The notes under the pieces: generated by a model
Told to the model about the DNA's origin: nothing
Database searches by the model: none
Seen by the model: only the letters and a program-made list of their open reading frames with translations
Part shown: in pieces, positions 11,873 through 37,588 of the stretch
Layout: each line of letters opens with the position of its first letter
Position numbering within the stretch: position 1 is the first letter of the stretch
Made by a program: the position numbers and the translations under genes
NCBI RefSeq assembly: GCF_001720585.1
Contig: NZ_MABH01000133.1
Coordinates: 1-64,000 of the forward strand
DNA: 64,000 bases
Direction: 5' to 3'
Origin: Cereibacter johrii
GTDB lineage: Bacteria > Pseudomonadota > Alphaproteobacteria > Rhodobacterales > Rhodobacteraceae

Positions 11873-11979
11873 CAATCAAGTCCCTTGAACTGTGTCGCTC
11901 CGAGATAGGGCCTCGCCGGACCGCGACAAAGGGTCCCGCCATGCGCCTGCCGCATGGCCGCCATGGGTCCGGCGCCAGG

Positions 11980-13275: not shown

Positions 13276-16200
13276 TCAGGCCGAGGCCTCGCGCGCCTCC
13301 AGCATCGCCCGATGGGCCTGCCATTCCTTGTCCGGCTTCGAGATGAAGGTGTAGAACATCGGCACCACGAACAGCGTGAAGCAGGTCCCGATCAGCAGGC
13401 CCGTGAAGATCACGATCCCCATCGCCTGCCGCGCCTCGGCGCCCGCGCCTTCCGCGATGATGAGCGGCACCACCGCCAGCGCCATGGCGGCCGTCGTCAT
13501 CAGGATCGGCCGCAGCCGCACCTTGGCCGCCGCGACGATGGCCTGCCGCCGGTTCAGCCCGTGCTCCTCGCGCTGCTGGTTGGCGAATTCCACCATCAGG
13601 ATCCCGTGCTTGGTGATGAGGCCGATCAGCGTGATCAGGCCCACCTGCGTGTAGATGTTCAGCGTGCCGAGCCCGAGGTTCAGCGGCAGGATCGCCCCGA
13701 AGATCGAGAGCGGCACCGACATCATGATGATGAACGGATCGCGGAAGCTCTCGAACTGCGCGGCGAGCACGAGATAGATCACGACCACCGCCGCCGCGAA
13801 GGCCAGAAGGATCGTGTTGCCCTGCTCGACCTCGAGCCGCGACTGGCCGGAATAGTCGAGGAAGAAGCCGTCCGGCATCACCTCGTTGGCGATCTGCTGC
13901 AGCTCGGCCAGACCGTCGCCGGTCGAGACGCCGATCATCGGCAGCGCCGAGATCGTGGCCGAGTTGAGCTGGTTGAACTGTTCGATCGAGGCTGCCGAGG
14001 CGCCCGTCTCGAAATTCACCACCGAGGTCAGCGGCACCATCGCCCCGGAGGCTGCGCGCACGAAGAACTGGCTCAGCCGCTCCGGGTTGTTGCGCCAGTC
14101 GCGCGGCACCTGCGGGATGATGTCGTAGCTGTTCGACTCGCGGTCGAACTGCGCGACCGAGGCCCCGCCCACCAGAAGGCCCAGCGTGTTGCCGATGTCC
14201 GAGATCGGCACGTTGAGCGTCGCCGCCCGGTCCCGGTCGATGGTGGCCACCACCTCCGGCGCGTCGAAGGCGAGCGAGTTCTGCACCGCGATGAAGCGCC
14301 CCGAGGCCTCGGCCCGCCGGCGGATCTCCTCCGAGATCTCGAACACGCGGTCGGGCGACTGGATCGATTGCAGCACCATCGAGATCGGCAGCCCCCCGCC
14401 CGTGCCCGGCAGGCTCGGCGGCGAGAAGACGAAGCCCTGCACCCCCGGCACCGGATCGAGCCGCGCCTGCACCTCCTGCTGCACCTCGGCCTGGCTCCGC
14501 TCGCGGTCGGCCCAGTCCTTCAGCGCCCAGATGTAGATGCCCTGGTTGGCCTGCCCGCCGAAGCCTGCGATGGAGAATTCGGTGCGCACCTCGGGAATGT
14601 CCTTGGTCACGTCCGAGATCCGGTCGGTGTAGAGCGTGGTATATTCCTTGGTGGCGTACCGCGGCCCGTTCAGGATCGCGAACATCGCGCCCTGATCCTC
14701 TTCGGGCGCCAGCTCGCTCGTCGTGTTCATGAACATGAAGCCCGTGACCGAGACGAGCGCCGCCACCATCAGGAGCGTCACCGGCCGGTAGTCGAGCGAC
14801 GAGGAGCCCCGCCGTTCGTACCAGTTGGAAACGCCCTCGAGCGTGCGATCGACGGTGCGCTGGAAGCGGGTGCCGGTGCCCGCCTTCAGCAGACGCGCCG
14901 ACATCATCGGCGTGATCGTCAGCGCGACCACCCCGGAGATGATGACCGATCCCGCCAGCGCGAAGGCGAATTCGGCAAAGAGCGATCCGGTGAGCCCGCC
15001 CGAGAAGCCGAGCGGCGCCAGCACCGCGGCCAGGGTGATCGTCATCGCGATGACGGGGCCGGTGATCTCGCGCATCCCCTTCAGCGCCGCCTGATAGGGG
15101 CTCATCCCCTCGTCGATGTGCCGGTGGATGTTCTCGACCACCACGATCGCATCGTCCACCACGAGACCGATGGCCAGCACCATGGCCAGAAGCGACAGGA
15201 GGTTGATCGAATAGCCGAGCGCCAGCAGCACCGCGCAGACCCCGATCAGCGAGAGCGGGATCGTCACGATGGGCATCAGCACCGAGCGGAACGAGCCGAG
15301 GAACAGCAGGATCACCACCACCACGATGGCCACGGCCTCGGCCAGCGTCTTGAACACCTCGTAGATCGAGGCGGTGATCGTCTCGGTCGAATCGTAGACG
15401 AGGTTGATCTCCATCCCCCGCGGCAGCGTGTCATTGATCGCGGGCAGCTCCTCGATCACCGCAGCCGCGGTGGTCAACGGGTTCGCGGCGGGCGTCGGGA
15501 AGATCCCGATGAAGGTGCCGGGCTGGCCGTTGAAGGTCACGATGCTGTCGGGTTCGGCCGAGGCCAGCTCCACATCGGCCACGTCGCGCAGCCGCACGAC
15601 CTCGTCGCCGTCCGAGCGGATCGGCAGCGCCCCGAAGGCCTCGGGGGTCTGCAGCGTCGATTGCAGCTTGATCGAGCGCGCGAAATATTCGCCCTCGGTG
15701 CGCCCCGGCGCCGACAGGAAGTTCGAGGCCCGGATCGCCGTCAGCACCTCCGAGGCGGTCACATTGCGCGCGGCGAGCTTCATCGGGTCGATCCAGACCC
15801 GCATCGCATATTCGGCCGCGCCGATGATCTGGATTTCGGCCACGCCCTCGATGGTGGACATCCGCGGCCGGATCACCCGCTCGAGATATTCCGTCATCTG
15901 CTCGGCGGACATGTTGGGGTTCAGCGCCGCGAGATACATGAGCGCGAAATTGTCGCCCGTGCCCTTCACGATCACCGGATCCTCGGCCTCCGAGGGCAGT
16001 TCGCCCCGCACCTGCTGGACCTTGGCCAGCACCTCGGTCAGCGCCACGTCCGAGTTCGCGCCGAGCTTCATCTGCACCGAGACGACCGAGGCCGAGGGCC
16101 GGCTCTGGCTCGTCACATAGTCGATGTTCTCGGTCGTGGCGACGGCGCGCGCGATGGGGGCCGTGATGAAGCCCTGGATCAGATCGGGCGAGGCCCCCGG

Positions 16201-18889: not shown

Positions 18890-19363
18890 ATGGTCGACCT
18901 CATCTTGAGGCGCGACGGCCCACGTCGTGAAGACGAGGCCGCCCGTCGCCTTATCGACTCGAACCGCGACCGTATCGGACGGCTGGCCGATCAGCTGACC
19001 GGCGGCGGATGGTCCGCCCAGCAGGCGGCCCGCGCCGCAGCGCCCGCCGCGGCCCCGGCAGCGATGCCTGCGGCCGCTCGGCGTCCGGCGGGCGACGCCC
19101 AGCCCTATCTCCGCTTCAGCTCGAACGGGCGCGTGGTGATCGCCTGCGCCAACAGCGCGCGACAGCTGCATTTCCTGGGCGAGCTGCGCCGGCGGGACGG
19201 CAGGCTCCGCTTCGTGCTGGCGACGGCGGAAAACGGGTTCATCGCGCCGCTCGAGGACGCTTTGGCCGCACGGATCTCCGACCTCGACGGCCTGCTTCTC
19301 GCGACGGAGACGGACCGCGAGGCGCTGGAGGTCACGCTTCGCGAGCGGCTCGACCTCGCCTGA
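18890..19363 (+). CDS. Unrecognised 157-residue protein encoded ahead of the sigma-54 activator
   Basis: The ATG at 18890 has a strong GGGAGGAGG site. The N-terminal 40 residues are charged and helical. An Ala/Pro linker (residues ~45-65) leads to a compact domain (YLRFSSNGRVVIACANSARQ, then LHFLGELRRRDGRLRFVLATAENGFIAPLEDALA). I do not recognise a family. It ends 44 bases before the activator and is probably co-transcribed with it, which suggests a role tied to monooxygenase regulation. An in-frame extension to 18788 has no support. Confidence 0.7.
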   Translation: MVDLILRRDGPRREDEAARRLIDSNRDRIGRLADQLTGGGWSAQQAARAAAPAAAPAAMPAAARRPAGDAQPYLRFSSNGRVVIACANSARQLHFLGELRRRDGRLRFVLATAENGFIAPLEDALAARISDLDGLLLATETDREALEVTLRERLDLA

Positions 19364-19407
19364 CCGGCGAGCCCGGATCATGGGAAGACCAACTGGGGAG
19401 GATCGCG

Positions 19408-21345
<1,938 letters not shown>

Positions 21346-21385: not shown

Positions 21386-22480
21386 TCATTTCACCGCTTC
21401 GGCCGTTCGCTCTTCGGCCCGTCGGGTCGAGGGGGCGCCCGGAACGATCACGCCCCGCCCCGTGAAGCGGCGGTTCTTGAAGTCGTCGATGGCCGTGTTG
21501 ATGTCTTCCAGCGCGAATTCGGTCTGGTGCATCTTCACCTTGCCGTCCGCATTCAGCTCCATCAGCTCCACGAGTTCCGTGTAATCGCCGACGAGGCTGC
21601 CGCCGATGCGGATCTCGCGCGCGACAAGCTCGAGGGTCGGGATCTCGATGGTGCCGCCATAGCCCACCATGATGAGATCCCCGCCGTTCTTCAGAAGCTT
21701 CCAGCACAGGTTCTCGACACCGAGTTCGCCCACGAAATCGATCACCACCCGGGCGCCGCCGCCGGTGATCTGGCGCACCTCCTCGATGAGGTCGGGCCCG
21801 CCCGACAGCACCTTGTCCGCGCCGAGCTCCTTCGCCAGCACCTGCGCGCCCGGCTCGCGGTCGACGGCGATGGTCCGGCAGCCCGCCATCTCGTTCAGCA
21901 CCTGCAGCGCGATATGGCCGAGCCCTCCCACGCCGAGGATCAGCGCCCAGTCGCCCGGATCGAGCAGCTTCGCCGCCCGCTTGGCCGCGCGGTAGGCGGT
22001 GATGCCGGCATCGGCCATCGGCGCCACCGAAAGCGGCGTGATCCCCGTGTTCAGCTTGATGAGCGACCGCTCGGAGGTCTTGAAATATTCCGCGAAGCCG
22101 CCGTCCAGCCCGAGACCGGGAAAGAGGTTGTTCTGGCAGTGCATGTCATGGCCGTGGCGGCAGTTCAGGCAGATGCCGCAGGTGCGCAGCGGATGGCAGA
22201 TCACCGCCTCGCCGGGCTTGACCGAGGTCACGCCCGAGCCCACGTCCTCGACCCACCCCGCGTTCTCGTGCCCCATGATGTAGGGCAGCAGGGCGCCATG
22301 GCTGTCCATGATGTCGCGCCAGACGCCTTCGATGATGTGCAGATCGGTCCGGCAGAGTCCGGCCGCCCCCACCTTCACGATCACTTCGTCCGGCCGGTCG
22401 ATGGTGGGTGCCGGAACGTCCTCGATCTTCAGCCGGACGTTCATCGCCGGGTCGTATTCGTAGAGCCTCGCAGCCTTCAT
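21386..22480 (-). CDS. Zinc-dependent alcohol dehydrogenase of the monooxygenase operon
   Basis: 364 residues, a medium-chain dehydrogenase. Catalytic zinc ligands are visible at Cys43 and the GHE motif (His71, Glu72), and structural zinc ligands at Cys101, Cys104, Cys107 and Cys115. The nucleotide-binding motif is GVGGLG. GGAGG precedes the ATG. It is last in the mim-type operon. In related propane clusters the dehydrogenase oxidises the secondary alcohol made by the monooxygenase (2-propanol to acetone); here that substrate is inferred. Confidence 0.92.
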   Translation of the reverse strand: MKAARLYEYDPAMNVRLKIEDVPAPTIDRPDEVIVKVGAAGLCRTDLHIIEGVWRDIMDSHGALLPYIMGHENAGWVEDVGSGVTSVKPGEAVICHPLRTCGICLNCRHGHDMHCQNNLFPGLGLDGGFAEYFKTSERSLIKLNTGITPLSVAPMADAGITAYRAAKRAAKLLDPGDWALILGVGGLGHIALQVLNEMAGCRTIAVDREPGAQVLAKELGADKVLSGGPDLIEEVRQITGGGARVVIDFVGELGVENLCWKLLKNGGDLIMVGYGGTIEIPTLELVAREIRIGGSLVGDYTELVELMELNADGKVKMHQTEFALEDINTAIDDFKNRRFTGRGVIVPGAPSTRRAEERTAEAVK

Positions 22481-22530: not shown

Positions 22531-24162
22531 TCAGGGCCGGCCGAGCCGTTCGGCGCCGCCGCCGAGTGCGGGGCCTTCGGTCGGATCCTCCGCCTCGTCG
22601 AAATGGCCCACCAGCGTCTCGGTGGTCAGGATTAGCGCCGCGACCGAGGCCGCATTCGCAAGCGCCGCAGAGGTCACGCGCACCGGATCGATGATGCCGG
22701 CCGCGATCATGTCGCGGTGCTGGCCCGAGCTTGCGTCGAAGCCGGTTCCGGGCTCGGCCTCGGTCACGGCCTTGACCACGGCATTCGGGTCGCTGCCCCG
22801 GTTCAGCGCGATCCGCGCAAGCGGCCGCGTCAGGACCGAGCGCACCAGCCGCACGCCCTCGGCCACATCGCCCGAAAGTCCGGTCAGGGTGTCGAGCACC
22901 GGCGCCACCTGCGCCAGCGCCGTCCCGCCGCCGGGCACCACGCCCTCCTCGGCCGCGGCCCGCACCGCGTTCAGCGCATCCTCGACGAGCTGGATCGTGC
23001 GCTTCTGCTCGACGGGCGTCACGCCGCCCGCATGGATGATCGCCGTGCCGCCCGAGAGCTTCGCCACCCTCTCGCGCAGCTTGTCCTGCTCGATGTTGGG
23101 GGGCGCCGCCTCGAACTGGCGCTGCACCTGGGCCCGGCGGGCCGCCACGGTGGCCGGATCTCCCTCGCCCCGCAGGATCGTGGTGTGGCTGGCGCTGGTC
23201 ACCACCTTGCCCGCGCCGCCGAGCTGCGCCCGGCCCACCGCCTCGAGCCGGTGGCCCAGATCGCGCGCCAGCACCTGTCCCCCGGTCAGGATCGCCAGAT
23301 CGTCCATCATCGCGCGCCGCCAGTGGCCATATTCCGGCGGATGGACCACCAGATAGCGCTCGGGCGCCGGCGCCTCGAGCAGCGAGATCACCACCTCGGG
23401 CGAGACCTCCTCGGCCACGATGAGAAGCGGTCGCCCCTCCTCGCGTGCAAGCGCGCGGGCGGCGGTCAGCGCCTCGGGATCCCTGATCTTCTGATCCGTC
23501 ATCAGGATCAGCGGGCGGGCGAGATGGGCCTCCATGCTCTCGGTGTCGGTGACCATGTGGTGCGAGAGATAGCCGCGGTCGAAGGACATGCCCTCGATCA
23601 CCTCGAGCGTGGTCTCGACCGTCACGCCGTAATCGGCCGTGATGACCCCGCTGGTGCCCACCCGCGCATGGGCCTCGGCCACGAGGGCGCCCAGCGTCTC
23701 GTCGGTGGCCGCGATCCGCGCCACAGCGCCAAGGATGGTCTCGTCGGTGGCGGCCGGGCGCGCCGTCTCCTTCAGCGCGCCCACCACGCGGCCCACGGCC
23801 AGCTCGATGCCGCGGCAGAGATCGACAGGCTTCGCGCCCTTCTCGGCCAGGATCACCCCCTGCTGGATCATGGCATTGGCCAGCACGATGGCGGTGGTGG
23901 TGCCGTCTCCCGCCACCTCGTTGGTCTGCATCGAAACCTCGCGCACCACCTGCGCGCCCATGTTCTCGAACCGGTCGGGCAGCTCGATCTCGGACGCGAT
24001 CGAGACCCCGTCGCGCGTCACCAGCGGCGTGCCCACCGGCCGGTCGATCATCGCATTCATGCCCTTCGGACCGAGGGTCGGCTCGACCGCCGCGGCGAGG
24101 CGGGCGACCCCTCGGGCCAGCGCCTTCCGCGCTTCGTGGCTGTGCAGCATCTTCTTCGGCAT
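22531..24162 (-). CDS. mimG: Divergent GroEL-type chaperonin (MimG-like)
   Basis: 543 residues with the chaperonin hallmarks PTLGPKG and GDGTTTAIVLA and the ATPase Asp region near PGGGTAL. It departs from housekeeping GroEL: the N-terminus is MPKKMLHSHEARKALARG, the C-terminus lacks a Gly-Gly-Met tail (it ends GGGAERLGRP), and no groES is adjacent. AAGGAGG lies six bases before the ATG. In the mycobacterial mim operon the equivalent chaperonin is required to fold the large hydroxylase subunit, and I infer the same job here. Confidence 0.9.
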   Translation of the reverse strand: MPKKMLHSHEARKALARGVARLAAAVEPTLGPKGMNAMIDRPVGTPLVTRDGVSIASEIELPDRFENMGAQVVREVSMQTNEVAGDGTTTAIVLANAMIQQGVILAEKGAKPVDLCRGIELAVGRVVGALKETARPAATDETILGAVARIAATDETLGALVAEAHARVGTSGVITADYGVTVETTLEVIEGMSFDRGYLSHHMVTDTESMEAHLARPLILMTDQKIRDPEALTAARALAREEGRPLLIVAEEVSPEVVISLLEAPAPERYLVVHPPEYGHWRRAMMDDLAILTGGQVLARDLGHRLEAVGRAQLGGAGKVVTSASHTTILRGEGDPATVAARRAQVQRQFEAAPPNIEQDKLRERVAKLSGGTAIIHAGGVTPVEQKRTIQLVEDALNAVRAAAEEGVVPGGGTALAQVAPVLDTLTGLSGDVAEGVRLVRSVLTRPLARIALNRGSDPNAVVKAVTEAEPGTGFDASSGQHRDMIAAGIIDPVRVTSAALANAASVAALILTTETLVGHFDEAEDPTEGPALGGGAERLGRP

Positions 24163-24244: not shown

Positions 24245-25045
24245 TCAGAGGCGGCTGGCGGCTGCCTCACGCGGGGGAACGCGGTTGAGGATGAAGTCGA
24301 TCAGCTCCGGCTGGTCCGGCGCCGCCTCCGCCTCCGGTTGCGTGCGGTAGCGGGCCGCCTGAAGTCCGCGGCAGAGCGCGCCATTGAACTCCATGTTGAT
24401 CCGCACCGCCCGCAGCCGCGCCATGTGGTCGGGAAGGGTCTCGGGCGTCAGAGCCTCGCCGCCCCAGGTCACGAAGGCAGGATCGCCCGGATCGACCGCC
24501 CGCAAGGTTTCGCGCAGGATGGCGCGGTAGCGCGGCAGCTCCGCAGCCCCCGGATCCTCCCCGAGCCGCACCCGGCCGAGACCGCCGAGCGTCATCCGGC
24601 AGATCTCGTCCGCCCCCATTCCCGCCCGGCGCAGCGCGAGGATTACCGCCTCCTGTCGCCTCTGGAAGGCCTTTTCGGCGAAGATCGCGCGGAGCTCCTC
24701 GAGATCGCCGCCCTCCTCCTCGGCAAAGATGGTTCCGAAGGCCAGGCCCTCGTTCACGCCGCGGTTCACCTTGTCGGCGAAGAGATGGTCGAGCAGGCGC
24801 ACCCGCACCTGCCCGACCCACGGCAGGGCCGCCACCTCGCGCCGGATCCCCTCGGCCATAAGGAAGGCGAAGTTGGGCGAGCACCAGTAGGTGGGCAGCC
24901 GGAAGTCCACCTCGACCGCCCCCTTCTGCAGGCAGAGGCGCTCGATGAAACCGAGCTCGGTCACAGGCTCGTCCAGCTCGGGATCGGCCACGCGGGCGAG
25001 ACGGGCCCAGACGGCGGCCGCCTTTCCTGTCGTCGGCACCTCCAT
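24245..25045 (-). CDS. DUF59/MIP18-like protein of the monooxygenase operon
   Basis: 266 residues. The N-terminal ~90 residues resemble DUF59 iron-sulfur assembly proteins (VADPELDEPVTELGFIERL, then VEVDFRLPTYWCSPNFAFLMAEGI, with a Cys in the position where DUF59 proteins often carry one). The C-terminal two thirds are helical and unrecognised. It lies 4 bases after the amidohydrolase gene. A protein of this kind is found at the same place in mim/prm propane clusters. A role in metal or Fe-S loading of the diiron enzyme or reductase is inference. Confidence 0.8.
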   Translation of the reverse strand: MEVPTTGKAAAVWARLARVADPELDEPVTELGFIERLCLQKGAVEVDFRLPTYWCSPNFAFLMAEGIRREVAALPWVGQVRVRLLDHLFADKVNRGVNEGLAFGTIFAEEEGGDLEELRAIFAEKAFQRRQEAVILALRRAGMGADEICRMTLGGLGRVRLGEDPGAAELPRYRAILRETLRAVDPGDPAFVTWGGEALTPETLPDHMARLRAVRINMEFNGALCRGLQAARYRTQPEAEAAPDQPELIDFILNRVPPREAAASRL

Positions 25046-25049
25046 TGGT

Positions 25050-26072
25050 TCACTCCGCCGCGATCAGGACAGGATGGTCCGCGAAGTCGCGCCGCTTGGC
25101 GTCGACGTCGATGCCGTAGAGCCGCGCCGCGTTCAGGCCGAGGATCTTCTCCTTGATCTCGTCGGTCAGCTGCACGCCCCGCTCGGCCGCGATGTCCTCG
25201 GGGATCTGGAAGTTCCAGAACCGCTCGACCAGCCATTTCGGCGTCCAGATCGCATAGTCCGAGCCGAAGAGGATCTTGTCCGGCCCGAGCCAGAACAGGA
25301 GTTCCGCGATCACCTCTGCGAAATAGCGCGGACGGGTGTGGATGAAGGGCAGCGCCACGGCGAGCCCGCCGAAGACATTCGTCTCCTGCACCGCGATCCA
25401 GCAGAAATCGTCGAGCCGCGGCAGGCCGCAATGTTCGACGATCCAGTTGAGGCCCTGGAAATCGGTGGCGGCATCGTCCACGTCGCCCACCGAGAAACTG
25501 TCCTTGGACAGCGGGATGATCGTCGGGCCCTTGTGGACATGCATGTTGCGGATGCCGAGCTTCTCGCACAGCTCGAAGCATCTGTAGGCGGCGGGGTCGG
25601 TCAGCTTCCAGCCGCGGCTGTCGCCGTGCCACTCGGCGGTGTAGAGCTTCACCCCGGTGATGTCGTGCGTCTCCTTCATGTAGTGGATGTATTCCAGCGC
25701 CTTCTCGCCGTCGCGCGGATCGAAGGCGCCGTTGACGATGAAGCGTCCGGGGTTGCGGGCGGCCATGCGGCTCGACCGCTCGATGCAGCCGAAGCCGGTC
25801 TTGTAGAAATCGCCCAGCACCGTGGTCTGGATGATCGCCATGTCGTCGGGACCGTCCACGAACAGGTCGCGGTAGATGTCATCTTCGGAATATTTCTCGA
25901 AACGCGACTTCTCCCACTTCTCCTCCGGCGGGCTCAGCGCCGAATGATAGGCGTAGAAGCAGTCGATGAACTGCTTGCCGTGGATGTTGCGCTGGTTCTC
26001 GGGGCTGCCGTCCCAGAAATGGGTGTGGGCATCCACCACAAAGATCTCGCGGCCGTCGGCGGTCTTGTACAT
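25050..26072 (-). CDS. Amidohydrolase-family protein of the monooxygenase operon
   Basis: 340 residues of the amidohydrolase-2 fold. The N-terminal VVDAHTHFWDG gives the metal-binding HxH, MHVHKGPTI and WIVEHCGLPRLDDF contribute further His ligands, and FGSDYAIW the catalytic Asp. Equivalent genes directly follow mimD/prmD in propane 2-monooxygenase operons, where the protein is reported as needed for activity or assembly, with no clear hydrolytic substrate. It is 60 bases downstream of mimD. Confidence 0.87.
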   Translation of the reverse strand: MYKTADGREIFVVDAHTHFWDGSPENQRNIHGKQFIDCFYAYHSALSPPEEKWEKSRFEKYSEDDIYRDLFVDGPDDMAIIQTTVLGDFYKTGFGCIERSSRMAARNPGRFIVNGAFDPRDGEKALEYIHYMKETHDITGVKLYTAEWHGDSRGWKLTDPAAYRCFELCEKLGIRNMHVHKGPTIIPLSKDSFSVGDVDDAATDFQGLNWIVEHCGLPRLDDFCWIAVQETNVFGGLAVALPFIHTRPRYFAEVIAELLFWLGPDKILFGSDYAIWTPKWLVERFWNFQIPEDIAAERGVQLTDEIKEKILGLNAARLYGIDVDAKRRDFADHPVLIAAE

Positions 26073-26132: not shown

Positions 26133-26501
26133 TCAGATGTAGTCCATCACCTCTTCCATGTCGCCGAAGAGGATCACCGTATTGTCGTCCACCCGGACCA
26201 TGCGTCCGTAGTGGGTCGAGGTGTTCACCTCGAACATCTCGGCGGTCATCTCCTTGCCGAGGAATTCGCTGATCTCATCCATCTTGAAGATCAGCTTGCC
26301 CTCGCCGTCGATGCGGATAAGCGCCGGGTTGTAGGTGACGGTGACCTTCGGATCCTGGTCCATGAATTCGGCGATGGCGCGGGCCTCGACCGAGTCGTTC
26401 ATGGTGACCCCGCACTGGTGCGAGATCGTCTGCTCGAAGGTGATGTCCTTCATCGACTTGAAGATGTTGGATTTCGTGCTGTCGCGCGCTGCAACGGACA
26501 T
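26133..26501 (-). CDS. mimD: Monooxygenase coupling (effector) protein
   Basis: 122 residues, the size of MmoB/DmpM-type coupling proteins. Segments CGVTMNDSVEARAIAEFM and KVTVTYNPALIRIDGEGKL match the effector fold that docks on the hydroxylase and gates substrate and oxygen access. The start has a GGAGA-type site 6 bases upstream and lies 11 bases after mimC. Confidence 0.9.
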   Translation of the reverse strand: MSVAARDSTKSNIFKSMKDITFEQTISHQCGVTMNDSVEARAIAEFMDQDPKVTVTYNPALIRIDGEGKLIFKMDEISEFLGKEMTAEMFEVNTSTHYGRMVRVDDNTVILFGDMEEVMDYI

Positions 26502-26512
26502 GTGCTGTCTCC

Positions 26513-27571
26513 TTAGCGGGAAAGGCCGAGCTCGCCGAGGATCCGGCCCACCCGCTCGTGTGAGACGGCGCGGACATCCTCGAAGCTCACGGGTTTGGAG
26601 TGGGGCTGCGACCAGATCGGCTGCAGGGCCGCGGCCGCCTTGTCGGCAAGCGTCGCATGCTTGCCGATCCAGGCGCTCATCAGCGCGCGGTTGGCCTCGG
26701 CATGCCGGTTGTCCGTCGCAAGCAGATACATCAGGTCGATGGTGTTCGCGAGGTTGCGCTCGTAGTCGGCCTCGGCCGCCGAGATCACCGGGGGCGTGAT
26801 GAAATCGTTGTTCGCCGCCGCCGCCTGCATCAGGAAGCCCGACCGGAACAGCTCGCCCACCAGCGGCTCGAAGATCAGGTTGATGGCGAAATACTGTTCC
26901 AGATAGTCTTCCGCCCCCATGATCGTCTCGACCGCCTCGCGGCAGGGCTGCCAGACCGGATCCTCGAGCCAGGCGCGCTTGCCGGCCTCGTCGTCCCAGC
27001 CGTCGATATCCATGCCGATCTCGGCCAGATAGAGCGTGATGTCCTGCGCGAGCCGCATCTTGTAGGAAGCGTTGGTCAGCGTCGCATTGTTGATCATCTG
27101 CGTGTAGCCGTAGCGCTGCGCCTGCATGAGCGAGGTGCCGAGCCCGAACTCCGCATGTTTCCAGGCGCCGAGATGGGTCTGGAGGATCTTGATCCAGGCG
27201 CGGTCGAAGGCCCGCGGCGCGCCCGCCTTGCGGGCATTGGCGATCACCGACTGCACCATGGTCTCGATCTTGGACTGGCGCTGGTAATGGGTGCGCTCCC
27301 ATTCCTGATCGGGCGCCCGGAAGGCGTGCCAGTTCGAGCTCTGCGCCCGGGTATTGTCCTTCGTGTAGGCGCCCTTGCCGTTGTTGAAGCTGATGATCCA
27401 GTCCTGGATCAGATAGCGTTCGGGATCGGGCTGGACGTCGCAGGTGACGTCCTCGTAATGCGTGGCCCGCTTGCCCCGCGGTTCGAAGTAATTGTAGCGG
27501 CGGCTGGCGGAGCCGGCGAAGATCGCCGCGCCCGCGGCGCCGGAGCCCACGGAACTGGAGACTGCTGGCAT
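26513..27571 (-). CDS. mimC: Monooxygenase hydroxylase small (beta) subunit
   Basis: 352 residues. It contains the ferritin-like beta-subunit pattern (RYLIQDWIISFNNGKGAYTKDNT, DWPVNFW-like regions and helical stretches) without the full EExxH iron site, as expected for the non-catalytic subunit. Family motifs around SLMQAQRYGYTQMINNATLTNASYK support the assignment. GGAGG precedes the ATG. It pairs with MimA to form the hydroxylase. Confidence 0.9.
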   Translation of the reverse strand: MPAVSSSVGSGAAGAAIFAGSASRRYNYFEPRGKRATHYEDVTCDVQPDPERYLIQDWIISFNNGKGAYTKDNTRAQSSNWHAFRAPDQEWERTHYQRQSKIETMVQSVIANARKAGAPRAFDRAWIKILQTHLGAWKHAEFGLGTSLMQAQRYGYTQMINNATLTNASYKMRLAQDITLYLAEIGMDIDGWDDEAGKRAWLEDPVWQPCREAVETIMGAEDYLEQYFAINLIFEPLVGELFRSGFLMQAAAANNDFITPPVISAAEADYERNLANTIDLMYLLATDNRHAEANRALMSAWIGKHATLADKAAAALQPIWSQPHSKPVSFEDVRAVSHERVGRILGELGLSR

Positions 27572-27601: not shown

Positions 27602-28699
27602 TCAGTGCCCCGAGGCGCCGGAAGTTGTGGTGAAGCGGTCAAAGAAGATCCGCTCGCTGTCGAAATCGAGCATGAAGAGGACGGGCTGGAGCGCATCGAT
27701 CATCGGTGGCGGCCCGCAGGCATAGACATCGCCCTGCCCCTCGAGGCCCTCCTCGCGCAGGATGCGCGAGACCGCCTCATGGACGAAGCCGCGCTCGCCG
27801 GTCCAACCGCAGTCGATCGAGGCATGGGACAGGACCGGGATGAAGCGCACCGACGGATGCGCCTCGGTGAGCGCGCCGATCTCGTCCAGATGGAACAGAT
27901 CTTCAGGCGTCCGCGCGCCGTAGAAGAACAGCACCTCGCGCCCTTCGCCGCTGGCCAGATGATCCTGAAGGATCGACCAGACCGGCGACATTCCCGATCC
28001 GGCCCCCACGAGGATCACGGGTCCGTCCCGTCCTTCCCGCCGGAAGCACATCCCGTAGGGTCCGGTGACGGTGACTTCGGCTCCGAGGCGGATTCCTCCG
28101 CTGTCGAGCTGGTTGGAGAATTTCCCGTCGGGATATTTCTTGATGATGAACCCGAGCCTTTGGGTTTCGCTCGGCGGATTTGCCATGGAAAACGAGCGCG
28201 TAATCGTCTCCCCTTCTTCGGTGGCGACGGTGATGTCGACATATTGTCCCGCCCAGAATTTCAGGGGAGCGTCGATCTCGATCCCCACCCCGCGGATGTC
28301 GTGGGTGAGCCGGTCGAACCTCGAGATGCGGCCCCGGAAGCTTCGGACGGGGATCGATTTCGACAGCACCTCCTCGTCGTAGTTCAGCAGGTCGATGCAA
28401 AGGTCGTCATAGGCCTTCGCCCGGCACATGAGGATATGGCCGCTGTCGCGCTCGCTCTCGTTCAGGGCGAAGGTGGAGTATTTCAGCATCTCCACCTCGC
28501 CCTCGGTCAGCACGCATTTGCAGGCCGAGCACTGGCCCTCCTTGCAGCCGTGCGGCAACGAGATGCCCTGCCGGAAGGCGGCATCGAGGATCGTCTCGTC
28601 CTCGCGGACCTCGAACTCCACACCCACCGGCTCCAGCCGGACCTTGTGGATCTCGACCTCGACGCCGGGCCGCTTCTCCGCTGTGTAAACCTCTCCCAT
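27602..28699 (-). CDS. mimB: Monooxygenase NADH reductase (2Fe-2S/FAD)
   Basis: 365 residues. The N-terminal plant-type [2Fe-2S] domain has ligands Cys52, Cys57, Cys60 and Cys92. An FAD domain follows with RSFSMAN, then an NAD domain with GAGSGMSPVWSIL and YACGPPPMIDA. It transfers electrons from NADH to the diiron hydroxylase. Its place between the two hydroxylase genes (A-B-C-D order) is the mim/prm arrangement and differs from toluene or methane monooxygenase operons. Confidence 0.94.
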   Translation of the reverse strand: MGEVYTAEKRPGVEVEIHKVRLEPVGVEFEVREDETILDAAFRQGISLPHGCKEGQCSACKCVLTEGEVEMLKYSTFALNESERDSGHILMCRAKAYDDLCIDLLNYDEEVLSKSIPVRSFRGRISRFDRLTHDIRGVGIEIDAPLKFWAGQYVDITVATEEGETITRSFSMANPPSETQRLGFIIKKYPDGKFSNQLDSGGIRLGAEVTVTGPYGMCFRREGRDGPVILVGAGSGMSPVWSILQDHLASGEGREVLFFYGARTPEDLFHLDEIGALTEAHPSVRFIPVLSHASIDCGWTGERGFVHEAVSRILREEGLEGQGDVYACGPPPMIDALQPVLFMLDFDSERIFFDRFTTTSGASGH

Positions 28700-28769: not shown

Positions 28770-30437
28770 TCAGTGGCAGGGATTGATGGTGAAACCCGCG
28801 CGGTAGTCGGCGAGGTGCTTCTCGCGCGCCTCGGGGCTCATCTCGCGCAGGAGAGTGAGCGGCGAGAGCAGCGTATGGCCGCGCACATCGTCGAGCGTCC
28901 ACATGTCCTTGTCGTCGAAGCGCAGGTGCGGCTGCGGGGTCAGCGTCCTACCGTCATCGCGGACGAAGTTCAGGTCCTTGATGGCGTCGGCCAGATCCCA
29001 GCCGTGATAGAGCGTCTCCCACTCGCGCTTGCCCGAGAAGCGGCCCATCGCCGGGGTCGGCCGGCCCTGATACTCGTCCGAGAAGGCCTCGACGGCCGTC
29101 CAGCGGTCGAGCTCATGGGCGAAGGTGTGGAGCTGCCCGTCGATCTCGTCCACCACCATGTCCTCGCGGATGAGGCAGGGCACGAGGCAGGACCAGCAGC
29201 GGTGCGGATAGACGTAGCCCACTTCCTCGTTGAAGGTGATGACCTTCTGACCGGGCTTCGAGAGCTTCGCATACCAGCGCCAGAACTCGCCGAACTCGGC
29301 ATACCAGCCGGGATATTTCTGCTCGAACCACTCGAAGTCGCGGTCGGTCTGGGCCTCGATCCGCCAGAAGTTCACCGGCCAGCCGACCGCGAAGAACTGC
29401 GCGACCTTGTGGACATAGTGCTTCTTCGTAATCCGGTTCCAGGCTTCCTGCACGTCGTCATGGTGGACCTTGATCCCGTATTTCTCGAGCGGGAGCATGT
29501 AGGTGCGGTAGTAATCCTCGAAGATCCAGCGGTGCCACATCTCCGCGTAGGATTCCTTGTCCTTGTCGCGGTTGGTGGTGCCATATTCGATGAAGGTGCC
29601 GATAGCCGCATCGACGATCGCGTGGTTCTGCCAGAAGGCGTAGCGCAGGTCGCGTTCCAGCAGCAGGTGGTTCTCCGGCTCCTTCAGCGCGGCCATCAGG
29701 AGCGAATGGCCGTTGCCGATGTGCCGGCTCTCGTCCGACTGCACCGAGAGGAAGACCGTCGGCAGCGCATAATCGCCGTTGCGCGCCGCTTCCGAGGGCA
29801 TGGCCACGAAGAGCGTGTTGGTGAAGGCGGTCTCGGCCACCACCGTCAGATACATGCAGGCGGCCGTCATCGTGTCGCCGGTGATGAAGCCCTCGCCGAA
29901 CTGCCGGCCGATGGTGGTCGCGTAGCATTTCCCGAAGGCTTCTTCGGTGATGTCGAACCCGGCCGGGTCGATGTAGTTCTCCATGTACCACTTCTTCAGG
30001 TTCATCTGAATCGTGGAATGGCGGAACTCATCGACCATCTGCATGGTGAAGCCGGTGCGCAGATCCTCGCCGGGGGCAAGGCGGGCCACCATGGCCATCG
30101 AGCGGGCGGCGGAAATCTCCGGGAACGGGATGATCGCCAGGAACAGCTTCATCCATTCGACCCAGCGCGGCTCGACATTGCGGAACATGTCGCCGCGGAG
30201 CGCTGCATCGAGCGCGCCATAGACGCGGTTGTCCTTTTCCTCCTGCATGGGGAAGTAGGACCGCAGCACCTGTTTCATCGGATCGCGCGGCGCCTTCGAG
30301 ATCTTGTAGTCGGTCGGGAAGGTCGCCGCCTCCTGAACATAGGTGGGATTCCACCCGAGGTCGGAGATCTTCTTGGTCGCCTCGCCCACGGAGATTCCGC
30401 GCTGCGAGGTGATCTTGTTCAAGGTGAGGGACGTCAT
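28770..30437 (-). CDS. mimA: Soluble diiron monooxygenase large (alpha) subunit, propane/phenol type
   Basis: 555 residues. The two iron half-sites can be read: Glu108, then DEFRH (Glu137, His140), and Glu202, then DESRH (Glu236, His239). Together with operon order, this places it in the group of propane 2-monooxygenase PrmA/MimA, which also act on acetone or phenol in some hosts. The substrate here is therefore an alkane, ketone or phenol by inference. The ATG at 30437 has GGAGG 8 bases upstream; an upstream in-frame ATG at 30452 overlaps that site. A ~180-base leader separates it from the sigma-54 promoter. Confidence 0.95.
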   Translation of the reverse strand: MTSLTLNKITSQRGISVGEATKKISDLGWNPTYVQEAATFPTDYKISKAPRDPMKQVLRSYFPMQEEKDNRVYGALDAALRGDMFRNVEPRWVEWMKLFLAIIPFPEISAARSMAMVARLAPGEDLRTGFTMQMVDEFRHSTIQMNLKKWYMENYIDPAGFDITEEAFGKCYATTIGRQFGEGFITGDTMTAACMYLTVVAETAFTNTLFVAMPSEAARNGDYALPTVFLSVQSDESRHIGNGHSLLMAALKEPENHLLLERDLRYAFWQNHAIVDAAIGTFIEYGTTNRDKDKESYAEMWHRWIFEDYYRTYMLPLEKYGIKVHHDDVQEAWNRITKKHYVHKVAQFFAVGWPVNFWRIEAQTDRDFEWFEQKYPGWYAEFGEFWRWYAKLSKPGQKVITFNEEVGYVYPHRCWSCLVPCLIREDMVVDEIDGQLHTFAHELDRWTAVEAFSDEYQGRPTPAMGRFSGKREWETLYHGWDLADAIKDLNFVRDDGRTLTPQPHLRFDDKDMWTLDDVRGHTLLSPLTLLREMSPEAREKHLADYRAGFTINPCH

Positions 30438-30627
30438 GCCATGAGCCTCCATCTATGGCGCGGGAGCCTGCTCCCACGGAATGCGGCCGGGGGCCGCCCT
30501 GGGTCTGCGGATCACGGCAAAGGTTCAGGTCATTGCCCCTCGGCGCACCGTGCCGCCGGGCCTCCTCCCTTCGTTCTTGCGCCTCCGGGCCCCGGGGGCC
30601 GTTCGGACTTGTTGTGCTTCTCCTGCC

Positions 30628-30642
30628 GCACAGCCGGTGCCA
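30628..30642 (-). promoter_or_regulatory. Sigma-54 promoter of the mim operon
   Basis: On the minus strand TGGCAC-CGGCT-GTGC gives the invariant GG-N10-GC of sigma-54 promoters, with a perfect -24 element and a one-base-off -12 element. It is the best such match upstream of mimA. The activator gene and upstream palindromes strengthen the call. Confidence 0.75.
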
Positions 30643-30726
30643 CCGGCGGCAAAAGGCCGCGATGAAATGGCTTTTCAAGCGCCAACATTCTGAGGTTAAA
30701 GGAAAGATTTTTTCTGCGGCACGCGC

Positions 30727-30768: not shown

Positions 30769-30916
30769 TCACGGCCCGTTACAGCTGTAACGGCCACTGT
30801 CACGGCCCTTTACAGCGGCGGGTGCGGCGGCATGATTCGCAGCCGTTTCAACCCTTTCCGCGCCGCAGCGCACCCTTTTGCAGATGCGAAGGTAGCGGGA
30901 CGATACAGCTGTAACG
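30769..30916 (-). promoter_or_regulatory. Upstream activator-binding sites of the mim operon
   Basis: A perfect 18-base palindrome CCGTTACAGCTGTAACGG (30776-30793) lies ~140 bases upstream of the -24 element. Its core TACAGCTGTA recurs at 30904-30913. A near-exact 17-base direct repeat, TCACGGCCCGTTACAGC at 30769-30785 and TCACGGCCCTTTACAGC at 30800-30816, is offset by 31 bases (three helical turns). This is the spacing and symmetry expected for a dimeric enhancer-binding activator. The sites could also serve the divergent operon starting at 31058. Confidence 0.7.
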
Positions 30917-31057: not shown

Positions 31058-31522
31058 ATGCCAGCCAGCCAGGTTCCCTCGTTCCCGCCCGAAGCCGCCT
31101 CGCGGCGCATCGCCAATGAACTCGTGGCGCGCGCGCCGCAGGATCTAATCTTCACCATGCGCTTTCTGGGCGAGAGCCAGGATCTGCTTCAGGCGCATTT
31201 CCGCGCCTTCCTGACCCGGAGCCTCGCCCAAGCCGGCGCCACGCCCGAGGAGCATCCGCTGCTGCCCTTCTTCGTCGACAGCCACGCGGCCGAGATGCGC
31301 GACTTCGTCTTCACGGGCGCCGCCCTTGCCCGCCCGTTTCACCTGCAGGAGATCGAGGCCCTGACGGCGGATGCCGAGACGATGCTGCGCGTCGACATCT
31401 GGGATGCGATCGCCAGCCTGATCGAGATGGCCGAGGCCCGCTTTGCCGAGGGCATCGGCGCCGTGGTCGAGCGGCTTCGCGAGCAGGAGGCGGCGGTGCG
31501 TCCGCCGCGGCGCGAGCCATGA
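31058..31522 (+). CDS. Unrecognised helical 154-residue protein, first gene of the rpoN-linked operon
   Basis: The ATG at 31058 has GGAG upstream. The sequence is almost entirely helical with no signal peptide or membrane helix; notable segments are RAPQDLIFTMRFLGESQDLLQ and DAETMLRVDIWDAIASLIEMAE. I recognise no family. Its stop overlaps the next start (ATGA). It is divergent from mimA across a shared ~620-base regulatory region, so it may belong to the same regulon. Confidence 0.7.
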   Translation: MPASQVPSFPPEAASRRIANELVARAPQDLIFTMRFLGESQDLLQAHFRAFLTRSLAQAGATPEEHPLLPFFVDSHAAEMRDFVFTGAALARPFHLQEIEALTADAETMLRVDIWDAIASLIEMAEARFAEGIGAVVERLREQEAAVRPPRREP

Positions 31523-31740
31523 GGGAGCGGGCGGGTCTGGTGGCGGAGGTCGCGCGCCGCATCGCCGAGCAGCAGCGGGCGGCACGGCGACTGGCCGGGC
31601 TGCAGATCGCGGACGGGCCGGACGAGGCCATAGCCGAGGCGCTGGCAGAGGTCCGGCAGGCCACCCTGCGCGTCGAGGAGGCCGAAGAACAGCTCGCCGC
31701 CCACGATGTTGCGGCAAACGGCACAGGAGGACGGATGTGA
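31519..31740 (+). CDS. Unrecognised 73-residue coiled-coil protein
   Basis: A short, charged, Ala/Glu/Arg-rich protein predicted to be one or two long helices (VAEVARRIAEQQRAARRLAG, then LAEVRQATLRVEEAEEQLAA). It overlaps its upstream neighbour by 4 bases and its downstream neighbour by 4 bases (ATGTGA junction), so the three genes are translationally coupled. A partner or scaffold role with one of these proteins is plausible; no function is known. Confidence 0.6.
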   Translation: MRERAGLVAEVARRIAEQQRAARRLAGLQIADGPDEAIAEALAEVRQATLRVEEAEEQLAAHDVAANGTGGRM

Positions 31741-32822
31741 ACCAGAGCTTCAGCCCCCGACTTCTCGACCTCCTGGCCCGAAGCTGGCAGCGCCCGGCCG
31801 CCATCGCCGAGGTGATGTTCGATGCGGCCGGCGCCGCCGTCCTCTTCCGGGACGCGGAGGGCGGTCTGGCCCTCGGCGCCGTGGCCGATGGCGAGCCCGC
31901 CTCGGCGCGGATGCGGATGGAGGGCGACGTCGGGCGCATGACCATCCGGCCCCGGCGCCGGGCGCTGCCGACCCTGGTCGAGCCCGAACCGCTGCCCGCG
32001 GTGGCGGCGATGGCGGTGCTGCCCCGCGGCGGCTTCGTCGTGGGCGGGGCGGATGGATCGGTCCATCAGGTCACGCCGCGCGGACAGGTGGTCCGGCTGC
32101 GCGCCGCGGCAGGGGATCCGGTGCAGGCGCTGGCGGTCCATCCCGTCGACGGGCAGCTGGCGCTGGCCCTGCCGGGACGGGGGGTGCTGCGAGACGGTGG
32201 GACCGAAGCCACGATCCTCAAGGCCCATGCGCACGCGCTGGCCTTTGCCGAGGATGGCGCTCTTGCGGTCTCGGCCGCGGACGGGGTCTGGCTTTGCACC
32301 GCGAAGGCTCCCCGTCTCCATCCCCTGCCGTCGGCGCAGGGACCGCTCGCGCTGTCTGGGCGCTGGATCGCCGGGGCCTGCGAGGGTGCGGGCATCTGGC
32401 TCCTGGAGCGGGACAGCGGCCGGCTCGCCCATCTTCCCGGATTTCCGACCGCCTCCCGCTCGGTGCTGCTTGCCTCCGGGCCGACGCTTGTCGCCTCGGG
32501 CGCCTTCCGGCTGGTGGCCTGGTCGCTCGACCGGCCACCCTTCGCGGGCGATCACGGCGGCGCCCTCACCACGGGAACCGCCTCGGCGGTGGCGGTGACC
32601 CGCGCCGCGGCCCATCCCACGCGGGATCTGGTGGCTTTCTCACGGGCCGGAGGCGAGCTGGTTCTGGCCCGGCTCGGCCGACCCGAGGAGCTGGTTCTGC
32701 TTCCCGGCAGCGGCTGCGAGATCACCGAGCTCGCCTTCGCGCCCGGCGGTCGCCATCTGGGCCTCGGCACGGCGAGCGGAACCGCCGCCCTCGTCGAACT
32801 TCCCGACATGATCTTCAAGTGA
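31737..32822 (+). CDS. WD40-like beta-propeller protein
   Basis: 361 residues from a GTG start with AGGAGG six bases upstream. From residue ~85 on it has repeated blade-like units, for example AMAVLPRGGFVVGGADGSVHQV, QALAVHPVDGQLALALPG and ITELAFAPGGRHLGLGTASG. These fit a seven-bladed WD40-type propeller. There is no signal peptide, so it is cytosolic and probably a protein-protein interaction platform. Its position within the tightly packed operon leading to rpoN is unusual. The function is unknown. Confidence 0.7.
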   Translation: MNQSFSPRLLDLLARSWQRPAAIAEVMFDAAGAAVLFRDAEGGLALGAVADGEPASARMRMEGDVGRMTIRPRRRALPTLVEPEPLPAVAAMAVLPRGGFVVGGADGSVHQVTPRGQVVRLRAAAGDPVQALAVHPVDGQLALALPGRGVLRDGGTEATILKAHAHALAFAEDGALAVSAADGVWLCTAKAPRLHPLPSAQGPLALSGRWIAGACEGAGIWLLERDSGRLAHLPGFPTASRSVLLASGPTLVASGAFRLVAWSLDRPPFAGDHGGALTTGTASAVAVTRAAAHPTRDLVAFSRAGGELVLARLGRPEELVLLPGSGCEITELAFAPGGRHLGLGTASGTAALVELPDMIFK

Positions 32823-32851
32823 GACCCGATCGCCAAACGAAAGGACCCGTG

Positions 32852-33043
32852 ATGACCCCCGATGCCAGCCCGGATGCCAGCAAGGACGACTTCTTCGCCC
32901 GTCTCGCCGGGATCTCCGACGAGATGATCGCCGCCCACGGACCGGACTTTGCCATGGGCGCGCTGGTGCTTGCCGCGCGCTTCATCGCTTCCCGCAAGGG
33001 CGGCGAGCCGGGCGCGCCGCCTTCGCCCACGGCGGCCCACTGA
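32852..33043 (+). CDS. Unrecognised 63-residue protein before rpoN
   Basis: The ATG has an AAGGA site ~8 bases upstream. The small protein has a helical core (DDFFARLAGISDEMIAAHGPDFAMGALVLAARFIASR) and a Pro-rich tail. It lies 29 bases after the propeller gene and 19 bases before rpoN. No family recognised. Confidence 0.6.
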   Translation: MTPDASPDASKDDFFARLAGISDEMIAAHGPDFAMGALVLAARFIASRKGGEPGAPPSPTAAH

Positions 33044-33062: not shown

Positions 33063-34337
33063 ATGGTGTCGATGCAGCTCCGGCTGGGCCAGCGGCTGGC
33101 CCAGCGGGCCGTTCTCGCGCAGCGCGCCGAGATCCTCGAGGCAACCGGAGCGGACTGGGCGGAGCGGATCGCGTCCGAGGCGCAGCGCAATCCGTTCCTG
33201 CGGGTGAGGCTGCCAGCCGCCGCCGCGCCTGTTCCCGAAAGCGCCGCCCTGCCGCCCGACCTGCATGCGTGGCTCGGCTCGCAGATCCGCATGGCCATGG
33301 CCGCGCCCGAGGACCGGGCGCTTGCCTTCCGCCTGCTCGAGGCGCTCGAGCCCTCGGGCTGGCTGGGTCAGCCGCTGTCGCGCCTCGCGCCCGGTGCCGA
33401 GGAGCAGGCGGCGCGGATGCTCCACCGTCTGCAGCAGATGGAGCCCGCCGGCATCTTCGCGCGCGACCTGCGCGAGTGCCTCATGCTGCAGGCCCGCGAC
33501 CGGGGACAGCTCGATCCGGCGATGGCGGCCGTGCTGGATCGCCTCGATCTTCTGGCCTCCCACGGGCCGGCCGCCGTGGCGCATGCGGCCGGGCTGGCCG
33601 AGCAGACGGTGCGCCGCTGCCTTGACCTGATCCGGCGCATGGATCCGAAACCGGGCGCTGCCTTCTCGGCCGAGGAAGCTCCCCTGCGCGAGCCCGACCT
33701 TCTCGCGCGCCGCACCGCCTCGGGCTGGAGCGTCGACCTGAACCGCTCGCTGCTGCCCGAGGTCCGGGTCGCGCCCCTGCCGGACGGCGGCCCGGCCGAT
33801 GTCCGCCGGATGCATCAGGAGGCGCTGTCTCTGGCCAAGGCGACCGGCCTGCGGGGACGGACCCTGCTTGCCGTAGGCGCGCTGGTGGTGGAGCGCCAGC
33901 GCGCCTTTCTGGAGCAGGGGCCGGCCGCCCTCACCGCACTGGGGATCGGCGAGGCGGCCCAGGCGCTCGCGCTGCACCCGAGCACGATCAGCCGCACGGT
34001 CAATGGGTTGCTGATGGCGACCCCGCGCGGCCTCGTGGCGGTGCGCGATCTGTTCTGCGCGCGGCTGGCCGAGGGAACCGGAGCGCTCAGCGCGCCGGCC
34101 CTTCAGGCCCTGATCCGCGAGACGATCGCCGCCGAGAGCGCACAGGCGCCGCTGGAGGATGGCGAGATCGTCGAGGCGCTGGCCCGGCGCGGCATCCATG
34201 TCGCACGGAGAACCGTGGCCAAGCACCGGACGCTCGCGGGCCTGCCGCCTGCCGCCGCGCGCCGCCGGGCGGCCCCCTCGGGCCTGAGGGCGGTGGCCCT
34301 CAGCAGGCACCCTGTCCCGCTCGGAGGCAGGAGCTGA
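33063..34337 (+). CDS. rpoN: Diverged RNA polymerase sigma-54 factor (RpoN paralogue)
   Basis: 424 residues, a little short for sigma-54. Region I (MQLRLGQRLAQRAVLAQRAE) is recognisable but poor in Gln. The core-binding region has PAGIFARDLRECL and RRMDPKPG. The DNA-binding HTH is ALHPSTISRTVNGLLMATPRG (around residue 300). The RpoN box at 381-389 reads ARRTVAKHR, with His388 replacing the Tyr of the nearly invariant ARRTVAKYR. R. sphaeroides is known to have several non-interchangeable rpoN copies; this is likely one of them, though I cannot number it. Its neighbourhood suggests dedication to the mim or adjacent operon. Confidence 0.9.
   Translation: MVSMQLRLGQRLAQRAVLAQRAEILEATGADWAERIASEAQRNPFLRVRLPAAAAPVPESAALPPDLHAWLGSQIRMAMAAPEDRALAFRLLEALEPSGWLGQPLSRLAPGAEEQAARMLHRLQQMEPAGIFARDLRECLMLQARDRGQLDPAMAAVLDRLDLLASHGPAAVAHAAGLAEQTVRRCLDLIRRMDPKPGAAFSAEEAPLREPDLLARRTASGWSVDLNRSLLPEVRVAPLPDGGPADVRRMHQEALSLAKATGLRGRTLLAVGALVVERQRAFLEQGPAALTALGIGEAAQALALHPSTISRTVNGLLMATPRGLVAVRDLFCARLAEGTGALSAPALQALIRETIAAESAQAPLEDGEIVEALARRGIHVARRTVAKHRTLAGLPPAAARRRAAPSGLRAVALSRHPVPLGGRS

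Positions 34338-34491: not shown

Positions 34492-37588
<3,097 letters not shown>

Follow-up and report, generated by a model that had tools for sequence, protein, structure and literature searches.

The closest described relatives of the locus reported here are the MimABCD/PrMO monooxygenase operons and the multiple sigma-54 (RpoN) systems of Cereibacter sphaeroides. The chaperonin MimG was reported to be required for active MimABCD (PMC7570240), and the PrMO of Methylocella was placed in group 5 and tied to acetone and 2-propanol (PMC7660913). C. sphaeroides was reported to have four rpoN genes and five bona fide activators, with RpoN1 serving nif, RpoN2 serving fla1, and RpoN3 acting with AprX, a receiver-domain activator, at xrpA; in the part of that report available to us no role is given for RpoN4, and RSWS8N_04525, when tested, was not found to be required for xrpA (PMC11999139). 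The locus studied here lies in a stretch of 64,000 nucleotides of Cereibacter johrii (assembly GCF_001720585.1, contig NZ_MABH01000133.1, positions 1 to 64,000), hereafter the window. It shares a hydroxylase, a reductase, a beta subunit and a GroEL-like gene with the MimG-containing MimABCD/PrMO operons of Mycobacterium and Methylocella, and a sigma-54 activator with the mim loci of Azospirillum and Methylocella. Unlike the Methylocella, Azospirillum and Rhodococcus mim loci examined, it also carries four small genes, here called A, B, C and D, and an rpoN paralogue, which run divergently from the hydroxylase gene mimA. Our best overall explanation, to which we give a probability of about 0.5, is that A-B-C-D are accessory genes, combined in modular fashion, of a single clade of soluble diiron monooxygenases of the MimABCD type, and that the paralogue is a local sigma-54 for the mim operon. 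The block and rpoN are as follows.

31058..31522, + strand: A, a helical 154-residue protein of no known family (reading frames, Pfam/NCBIfam scans, predicted model, comparison with the same-genus genome G051)
31519..31740, + strand: B, a small, fast-evolving 73-residue protein (reading frames, profile, comparison with G051)
31737..32822, + strand: C, a 361-residue WD40-type beta-propeller with a GTG start (Pfam, PDB profile search, AlphaFold2 model)
32852..33043, + strand: D, a 63-residue protein, the most widespread of the four, with the pattern SKDxFF...H(G)KDFxxGxxVLxARxxA (reading frames, alignment, distribution)
33063..34337, + strand: rpoN paralogue (sigma-54), 424 residues, with strong core-binding and DNA-binding domains and a weak activator-interacting domain

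An earlier note on this DNA had described four genes coupled ahead of rpoN by 4-base overlaps and gaps of under 30 bases. The coordinates bear this out, with overlaps of ATGA between A and B and GTGA between B and C, and gaps of 29 bases between C and D and 19 between D and rpoN. Between the window and G051, differences at codon positions 1/2/3 numbered 2/0/20 in A, 2/4/16 in B, 26/15/59 in C, 0/0/11 in D and 23/14/74 in rpoN, and the ratios of non-synonymous to synonymous change (dN/dS) were 0.07, 0.13, 0.27, 0.00 and 0.19, respectively. Given the third-position excess and the low dN/dS, A to D and rpoN are protein-coding and chance frames are excluded; long frames on the opposite strand were taken as GC-rich shadows.

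The block belongs with the divergent monooxygenase operon rather than with rpoN, and we regard the link between A-B-C-D and the monooxygenase as close to certain. Scanned with A, the GTDB genome contigs yielded 18 loci, from Gemmobacter, Fuscibacter, Paracoccus, Rhizobium, Ensifer/Sinorhizobium, Rubrimonas and others. A divergent hydroxylase gene adjoined A in all 18, cut by a contig end in two of these. C was present in 18/18, B in 18/18 by a profile built from 14 sequences (six of them out of these same loci), and D in 17/18, the 18th contig ending before D. Because this set had been picked by A, independent searches were run with mimA and with D. In the window's family mimA was found in 8 of 248 genomes, always at an identity of at least 91%, and B, C and D adjoined it in all eight and A in four; a direct search with A in the same 248 genomes gave four matches. 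Across the class, mimA was present in 3 of 385 genomes, namely the window genome, G592, where B and D alone are present, and G273, which has none of A to D, and a search of the class with A found only the window genome itself (1/385). Across the phylum, D was found in 6 of 349 genomes, four times beside an intact mimA, once (G927) beside a mimA fragment, and once (G855) as what we judged by eye to be a chance match. The G855 match (7.2e-4; 57% over 23 residues; 1e-5 with a profile of ours) lies in a frame whose surroundings are unlike D, in a stretch with no mim gene. The suggestion that the monooxygenase might be the partner of an undescribed set of genes thus held, both in the partner and, for A to D, in their being inherited together.

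Plasmids gave a similar association: mimA was present in 21 records (E 1e-100) and D in 13 (E 1e-3), with both in 11. The ten records with mimA and no D came from Azospirillum (four), Rhodococcus (three), Methylocella (two) and Indioceanicola (one), and the two with D only (Phyllobacterium and Rhizobium CB3171) are both broken loci. On the Phyllobacterium zundukense plasmid (L048 10770-21093), C and D lie between ISL3 transposases with no mim genes within 15 kb. In Rhizobium sp. CB3171 (L049 about 10974-11967), mimA is a short remnant beside a truncated C, and the remaining mim operon is present. An insertion of ISPam1 (IS5-like) was also seen between the mim reductase and beta-subunit genes of Paracoccus aminophilus pAMI4 (L053 5436-6365).

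The block is found in several layouts. A-B-C-D is divergent from mimA in the window, Gemmobacter, Rhizobium and others; B-C-D, rpoN and mimA are co-directional in G239, G125, G080, G082 and Ponticoccus; the betaproteobacterium Caballeronia has adh (the alcohol dehydrogenase gene)-B-C-D-mimABCD in one direction; and Bradyrhizobium has activator-A-B-C-D, with B recognized by profile. Reduced sets occur in G592, which has B and D, and in Skermanella, where D stands alone behind groEL. The combinations seen are D, B-D, B-C-D and A-B-C-D, and the set extends over Alpha- and Betaproteobacteria. On a tree of 36 hydroxylases, whose loci are a non-random sample, A was present in 23, B in 31, C in 30, D in 32 and rpoN in 15, requiring at the fewest 3, 3, 2, 4 and 3 changes, respectively. 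The idea that the five genes form one conserved block was not supported in that form, A being absent from 13 of these loci, B from 5, C from 6, D from 4 and rpoN from 21. The genes are in part found separately, A to D as modules and rpoN as a member of fewer than half of the loci. Two local peculiarities were seen. The A of Sinorhizobium sp. 8-89 (L031 9968-10750) has a second half dissimilar to other A proteins within one frame that runs on, possibly through a frameshift, and in G592 a small CDGSH-type iron-sulfur-like protein, recognized by eye, lies between adh and B (L046 7391-7633).

C proved to be the WD40-like propeller that had been proposed. It matched Pfam ANAPC4_WD40 (PF12894) at 4.3e-5, above cut-off, with WD40 PF00400 below its own cut-off; a PDB profile search also gave a propeller match; and its AlphaFold2 model had a mean predicted local distance difference test score (pLDDT) of 91 and a predicted template modelling score (pTM) of 0.90. 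The PDB matches listed for this model were mostly propellers, the eight-bladed Tako8 among them. By profile and fold C resembles the WD40 beta-propellers of bacterial PkwA and of the designed Tako8, but it fits no specific WD40 subfamily and carries no extra domain. The helical character proposed for A was found again in its predicted model, at medium confidence only (pLDDT 74). That model had no significant match in the PDB (best Foldseek E 1.8), and in a second structure search the best Z, 6.9, was within that tool's common range for helical models, so no fold is claimed for A. Structure searches, run for A and C, thus gave generic helical matches for the one and propellers for the other. 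A search of viral contigs for A gave 27 pattern stretches and no relative of A.

None of A, B and D reached the cut-off of any Pfam or NCBIfam family, in agreement with the earlier note, which could link them to none. For D, the best Pfam E-value across the 28 members scanned was 0.1, and neither NCBIfam (three D proteins) nor a PDB sequence profile search gave a match. Ten residues were invariant in 28 D sequences: K11, F15, M25, H29, F33, G36, L40, A42, R43 and A46. Relatives of B outside the genus have 91-130 residues (11 in full length), compared to 73 in the window. On reading the sequence, B looks like a possible coiled coil and no signal peptide is apparent in the proteins of the block, as the earlier note had it. 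Just 3' of D, at L042 10412-10870 and L010 15123-16244, proteins are encoded on the opposite strand that have, by eye, an N-terminal SPQLLARV-like stretch, possibly a further member of the cassette.

The neighbouring operon of the window, together with the activator gene, is made up as follows.

28770..30437, - strand: mimA-type hydroxylase alpha subunit, with a longer start possible at 30452
27602..28699, - strand: monooxygenase reductase, named from the annotation of relatives
26513..27571, - strand: hydroxylase beta subunit
26133..26501, - strand: MmoB/DmpM-type coupling protein
25050..26072, - strand: amidohydrolase family protein (PF04909)
24245..25045, - strand: iron-sulfur assembly-like protein (PF01883)
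22531..24162, - strand: operon-specific GroEL-like chaperonin
21386..22480, - strand: zinc alcohol dehydrogenase
19009..21345, + strand: sigma-54 activator, GAF-AAA-Fis, with a GAFTGA loop

The mimA product matched PF02332 (Phenol_Hydrox) at 2.4e-61 and the alpha chains of soluble methane monooxygenase at 1.5e-63. Its translation contains two ExxH motifs, DEFRH and DESRH, which we take to be the iron-ligand motif of soluble diiron monooxygenase hydroxylases. By its sequence, then, mimA encodes a soluble diiron monooxygenase that is MimA/PrMO-like (propane/acetone type), and from this kinship the substrate would be propane or acetone. On the other side of the block, 3' of rpoN and convergent with it, are genes for an IMP dehydrogenase (34492-35502) and a SLAC1-type transporter (36135-37109), which look unrelated to the block.

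The rpoN product of the window matched the core-binding (PF04963, 1.3e-37) and DNA-binding (PF04552, 3e-39) domains. It scored 267.6 against the cut-off of 277.35 for the NCBIfam equivalog rpoN_sigma, and its activator-interacting domain (PF00309) scored 18.7 bits in the protein and 22.8 in the genome scan, with a cut-off of 23.8. The window genome resembles the C. sphaeroides RpoN1-4 system in having four rpoN genes, and in having five activators with an exact GAFTGA or GSFTGA loop among 12 of its 15 activator matches. Flagellar genes surround one rpoN (C171) and another (C147) adjoins nifS, which suggests that they are RpoN2 and RpoN1, respectively; a further one (C37) has a tRNA selenouridine synthase gene and a recombinase in its neighbourhood. 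With RpoN1 and RpoN2 taken, the window rpoN would be RpoN3 or RpoN4, and RpoN4 is the better guess because the neighbouring activator has a GAF domain and no receiver domain. The mim-linked rpoN of Cereibacter is thus probably RpoN4, and the window pair may correspond to RpoN4 with RSWS8N_04525, an assignment made by elimination only and not by locus tag. Unlike the assigned RpoN systems of C. sphaeroides, this rpoN/activator pair adjoins a monooxygenase. A 2011 FEMS paper reportedly dealt with the origin of the C. sphaeroides RpoN factors. A full-text literature search, judged by titles and the starts of abstracts, found among the matches listed no work on the A to D block or on a mim-linked rpoN.

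In the loci examined, mim-linked rpoN was found only in Rhodobacterales records or in the window's family. Sigma54_DBD genes were counted in 22 mim-bearing genomes and assigned to loci by contig coordinates. Twelve of the 22 had a mim-linked rpoN, and in six of these (Paracoccus haematequi, Gemmobacter caeni, G. serpentinus, G. nectariphilus, G082 and G080) it was the only sigma-54 gene above cut-off. G080 has a further 31-residue match below cut-off; completeness is 99% for G082 and G080, the two of the six for which we have a figure. The other six genomes have two (G125, G239, Fuscibacter), three (G. aquatilis) or four (window, G051) rpoN genes. In the ten mim genomes where no rpoN is local, sigma-54 is encoded at another place in every case (in G592, two adjacent matches). 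In a tree of RpoN the mim-linked rows fell on one side of a branch with support 54/61. For the six genomes with a lone rpoN we took all 33 Sigma54_activat matches at E 1e-20 or better. Six had an exact GAFTGA loop, one at each mim locus, and none of the other 27 did, one of which could not be aligned. In P. haematequi and G082 nothing close to GAFTGA was found in the other activators of this set. Above these cut-offs each of the six genomes has a lone sigma-54 and a lone exact-GAFTGA activator, both at the mim locus, which would act on the mimA promoter. Second activator-like genes were also noted. In two Gemmobacter loci, one is convergent to rpoN (L018 14587-16371; L020 14584-15360, by similarity) and has no GAFTGA where aligned, and in two Rhizobiales loci one lies beside adh (L022 about 14214-16016; L025 about 14233-16038), with a GAYTNA or GAFTNA loop and a sigma-54-like site preceding adh.

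The promoters were scanned with a sigma-54 consensus. A strong -24/-12 site was found 161-317 bases before mimA in 16 of 17 loci without a local rpoN (the low-scoring G273 was set apart); the 17th, Caballeronia, has a weaker site before mimA and a sigma-54-like site before adh. In all eight Gemmobacter, Paracoccus, Fuscibacter and UBA1943 loci with a local rpoN, the -12 box was CTGC, continuing as CTGCATGTATCCC in seven and as CTGCTTGTATCCC in G. aquatilis. Where this group reads C, all 17 loci without a local rpoN read T. The eight CTGC loci are close kin and count as one event, not eight. The pattern YTGGYACNNNNYCTGCAT gave one match per genome in five genomes, each on the mim-locus contig, with none for reversed-pattern controls. 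A genome-wide pattern one base short between the boxes, which serves only as a wrong-spacing control, gave 0-2 matches per genome. Since YTGGYACNNNNYCTGCAT was built from the promoters of this group, its one match was to be expected, and the informative part is that there was no second. The five Roseobacter-type loci, with the exception of G082, had weaker or differing sites. G592 carries adh and B-D co-directionally behind a sigma-54-like site. The window has two candidate elements between mimA and A.

30627..30643, - strand: candidate sigma-54 promoter of mimA, GTGGCACCGGCTGTGCG, identical in G051
30777..30792, no strand assigned: inverted repeat CGTTACAGCTGTAACG, candidate activator site, with a partial copy at 30904-30916

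A second GG-N10-GC candidate in the window, TTGGCGCTTGAAAAGCC, was rejected, being broken in G051 (TTGACGC). Half-sites TGTAACG/CGTTACA occurred one to six times before mimA in 14 of 15 loci with a local rpoN, compared to 0.00-0.08 expected per region; there were none in G082, and 0-2 in 18 other loci. These half-sites are candidate activator sites.

As an accessory set, A to D would gather on the propeller C as a cytosolic complex that, alongside the GroEL-like chaperonin of the operon, would aid the assembly, stability or tuning of the hydroxylase. We hold this protein-level role tentatively, at slightly under even odds; the accessory role is favoured by Caballeronia and G592, in which block genes sit behind sigma-54-like sites together with the enzymes. 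In the Rhodobacterales cassette the GAF-type activator would bind the half-sites and, with the local RpoN, open the mimA promoter. That rpoN is dedicated to the mim operon we consider likely, and in the Gemmobacter/Paracoccus group sigma-54 may have been kept for this one operon. The wider picture, somewhat short of an even bet, is of a mobile monooxygenase cassette with a full private transcription system (its own sigma-54, GAFTGA activator and promoter dialect) and an undescribed multi-protein accessory complex, which in some Rhodobacterales would be the cell's only sigma-54 system.

A number of observations weigh against the reading of A to D as accessory genes and of rpoN as a local sigma-54 for mim. 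None of A to D accompanies mimA in Azospirillum, Methylocella, Rhodococcus and G273, so the set is not a requirement of every such enzyme. Sequence change in A, B and C is far more rapid than in the hydroxylase, which is not how a closely fitted subunit would behave: outside the genus, C retains 29-43% and A 39-67% identity to the window, against 91-95% for full-length MimA from those loci. The mimA promoter candidate of the window is weak (5.0 bits, p about 0.6 against shuffled sequence), and no strong sigma-54 site was found before the block where it is divergent, so the block may not be co-induced. G082 has a canonical mimA promoter though its only rpoN is local, so a single rpoN at the locus is not always paired with the changed promoter. 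The case for a dedicated sigma factor is weakened by near-variant activator loops in the lone-rpoN genomes. GAFPGA was read once each in G. caeni and G. serpentinus and twice in G. nectariphilus, and GAFAGA once in G080, so that in four of the six, other activators might use sigma-54 too; looser forms, GALPG for example, occur as well. Finally, a branch support of only 54/61 does not establish a single origin of the mim-linked rpoN.

Some of these points would suit a regulatory module, in which A-B-C-D form a cytosolic sensor complex controlling the activator or RpoN, and hence the mim operon. The divergent block without a strong site of its own and the fast evolution of A, B and C fit such a role, as does the contiguity of the block with rpoN in the window and Paracoccus; in Bradyrhizobium, A-B-C-D directly follow the activator gene, which could mean regulation and so counts against an accessory role as well. 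However, D, B-D and B-C-D exist without a local rpoN, the Caballeronia and G592 genes sit behind sigma-54-like sites with adh or mim, the activator already has a GAF domain of its own, and the mim loci of Azospirillum and Methylocella include an adjoining sigma-54 activator gene but not the block. We consider a regulatory module rather unlikely, and the narrower proposal of the earlier note, that the propeller modulates the sigma factor, found no direct support, C, D and mimA also occurring without a local rpoN. Alternatively, the block might serve a neighbouring metabolic step or cell protection, for instance alongside the amidohydrolase and iron-sulfur-assembly-like protein, and not the hydroxylase itself. 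Every B locus among the 36 has the amidohydrolase, and the proteobacterial loci without it (Azospirillum, Methylocella, G273 and Skermanella) lack B and C; but Rhodococcus has the amidohydrolase without the block, and A, B and D carry no enzyme signature, which leaves this explanation distinctly unlikely. That unrelated genes were simply left adjacent might be argued from the loci lacking A or rpoN (13/36 and 21/36, as above), but it is very improbable, the gene order being kept across Alpha- and Betaproteobacteria, in both orientations to mimA, and on plasmids.

With A to D read as an accessory set and rpoN as a local sigma-54, four genes, of which three belong to no known family, acquire a partner and a role that can be tested, and the one C. 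sphaeroides sigma-54 still lacking a known role acquires a proposed target. For biocatalysis, B-C-D may be what is lacking when enzymes of this clade from proteobacteria are produced in other hosts. If the reading is true, the Gemmobacter and Paracoccus genomes with one rpoN would offer natural minimal sigma-54 systems, in which the specialisation of a sigma factor and its change together with its promoter could be studied, and a global sigma factor would have been retained for one operon.

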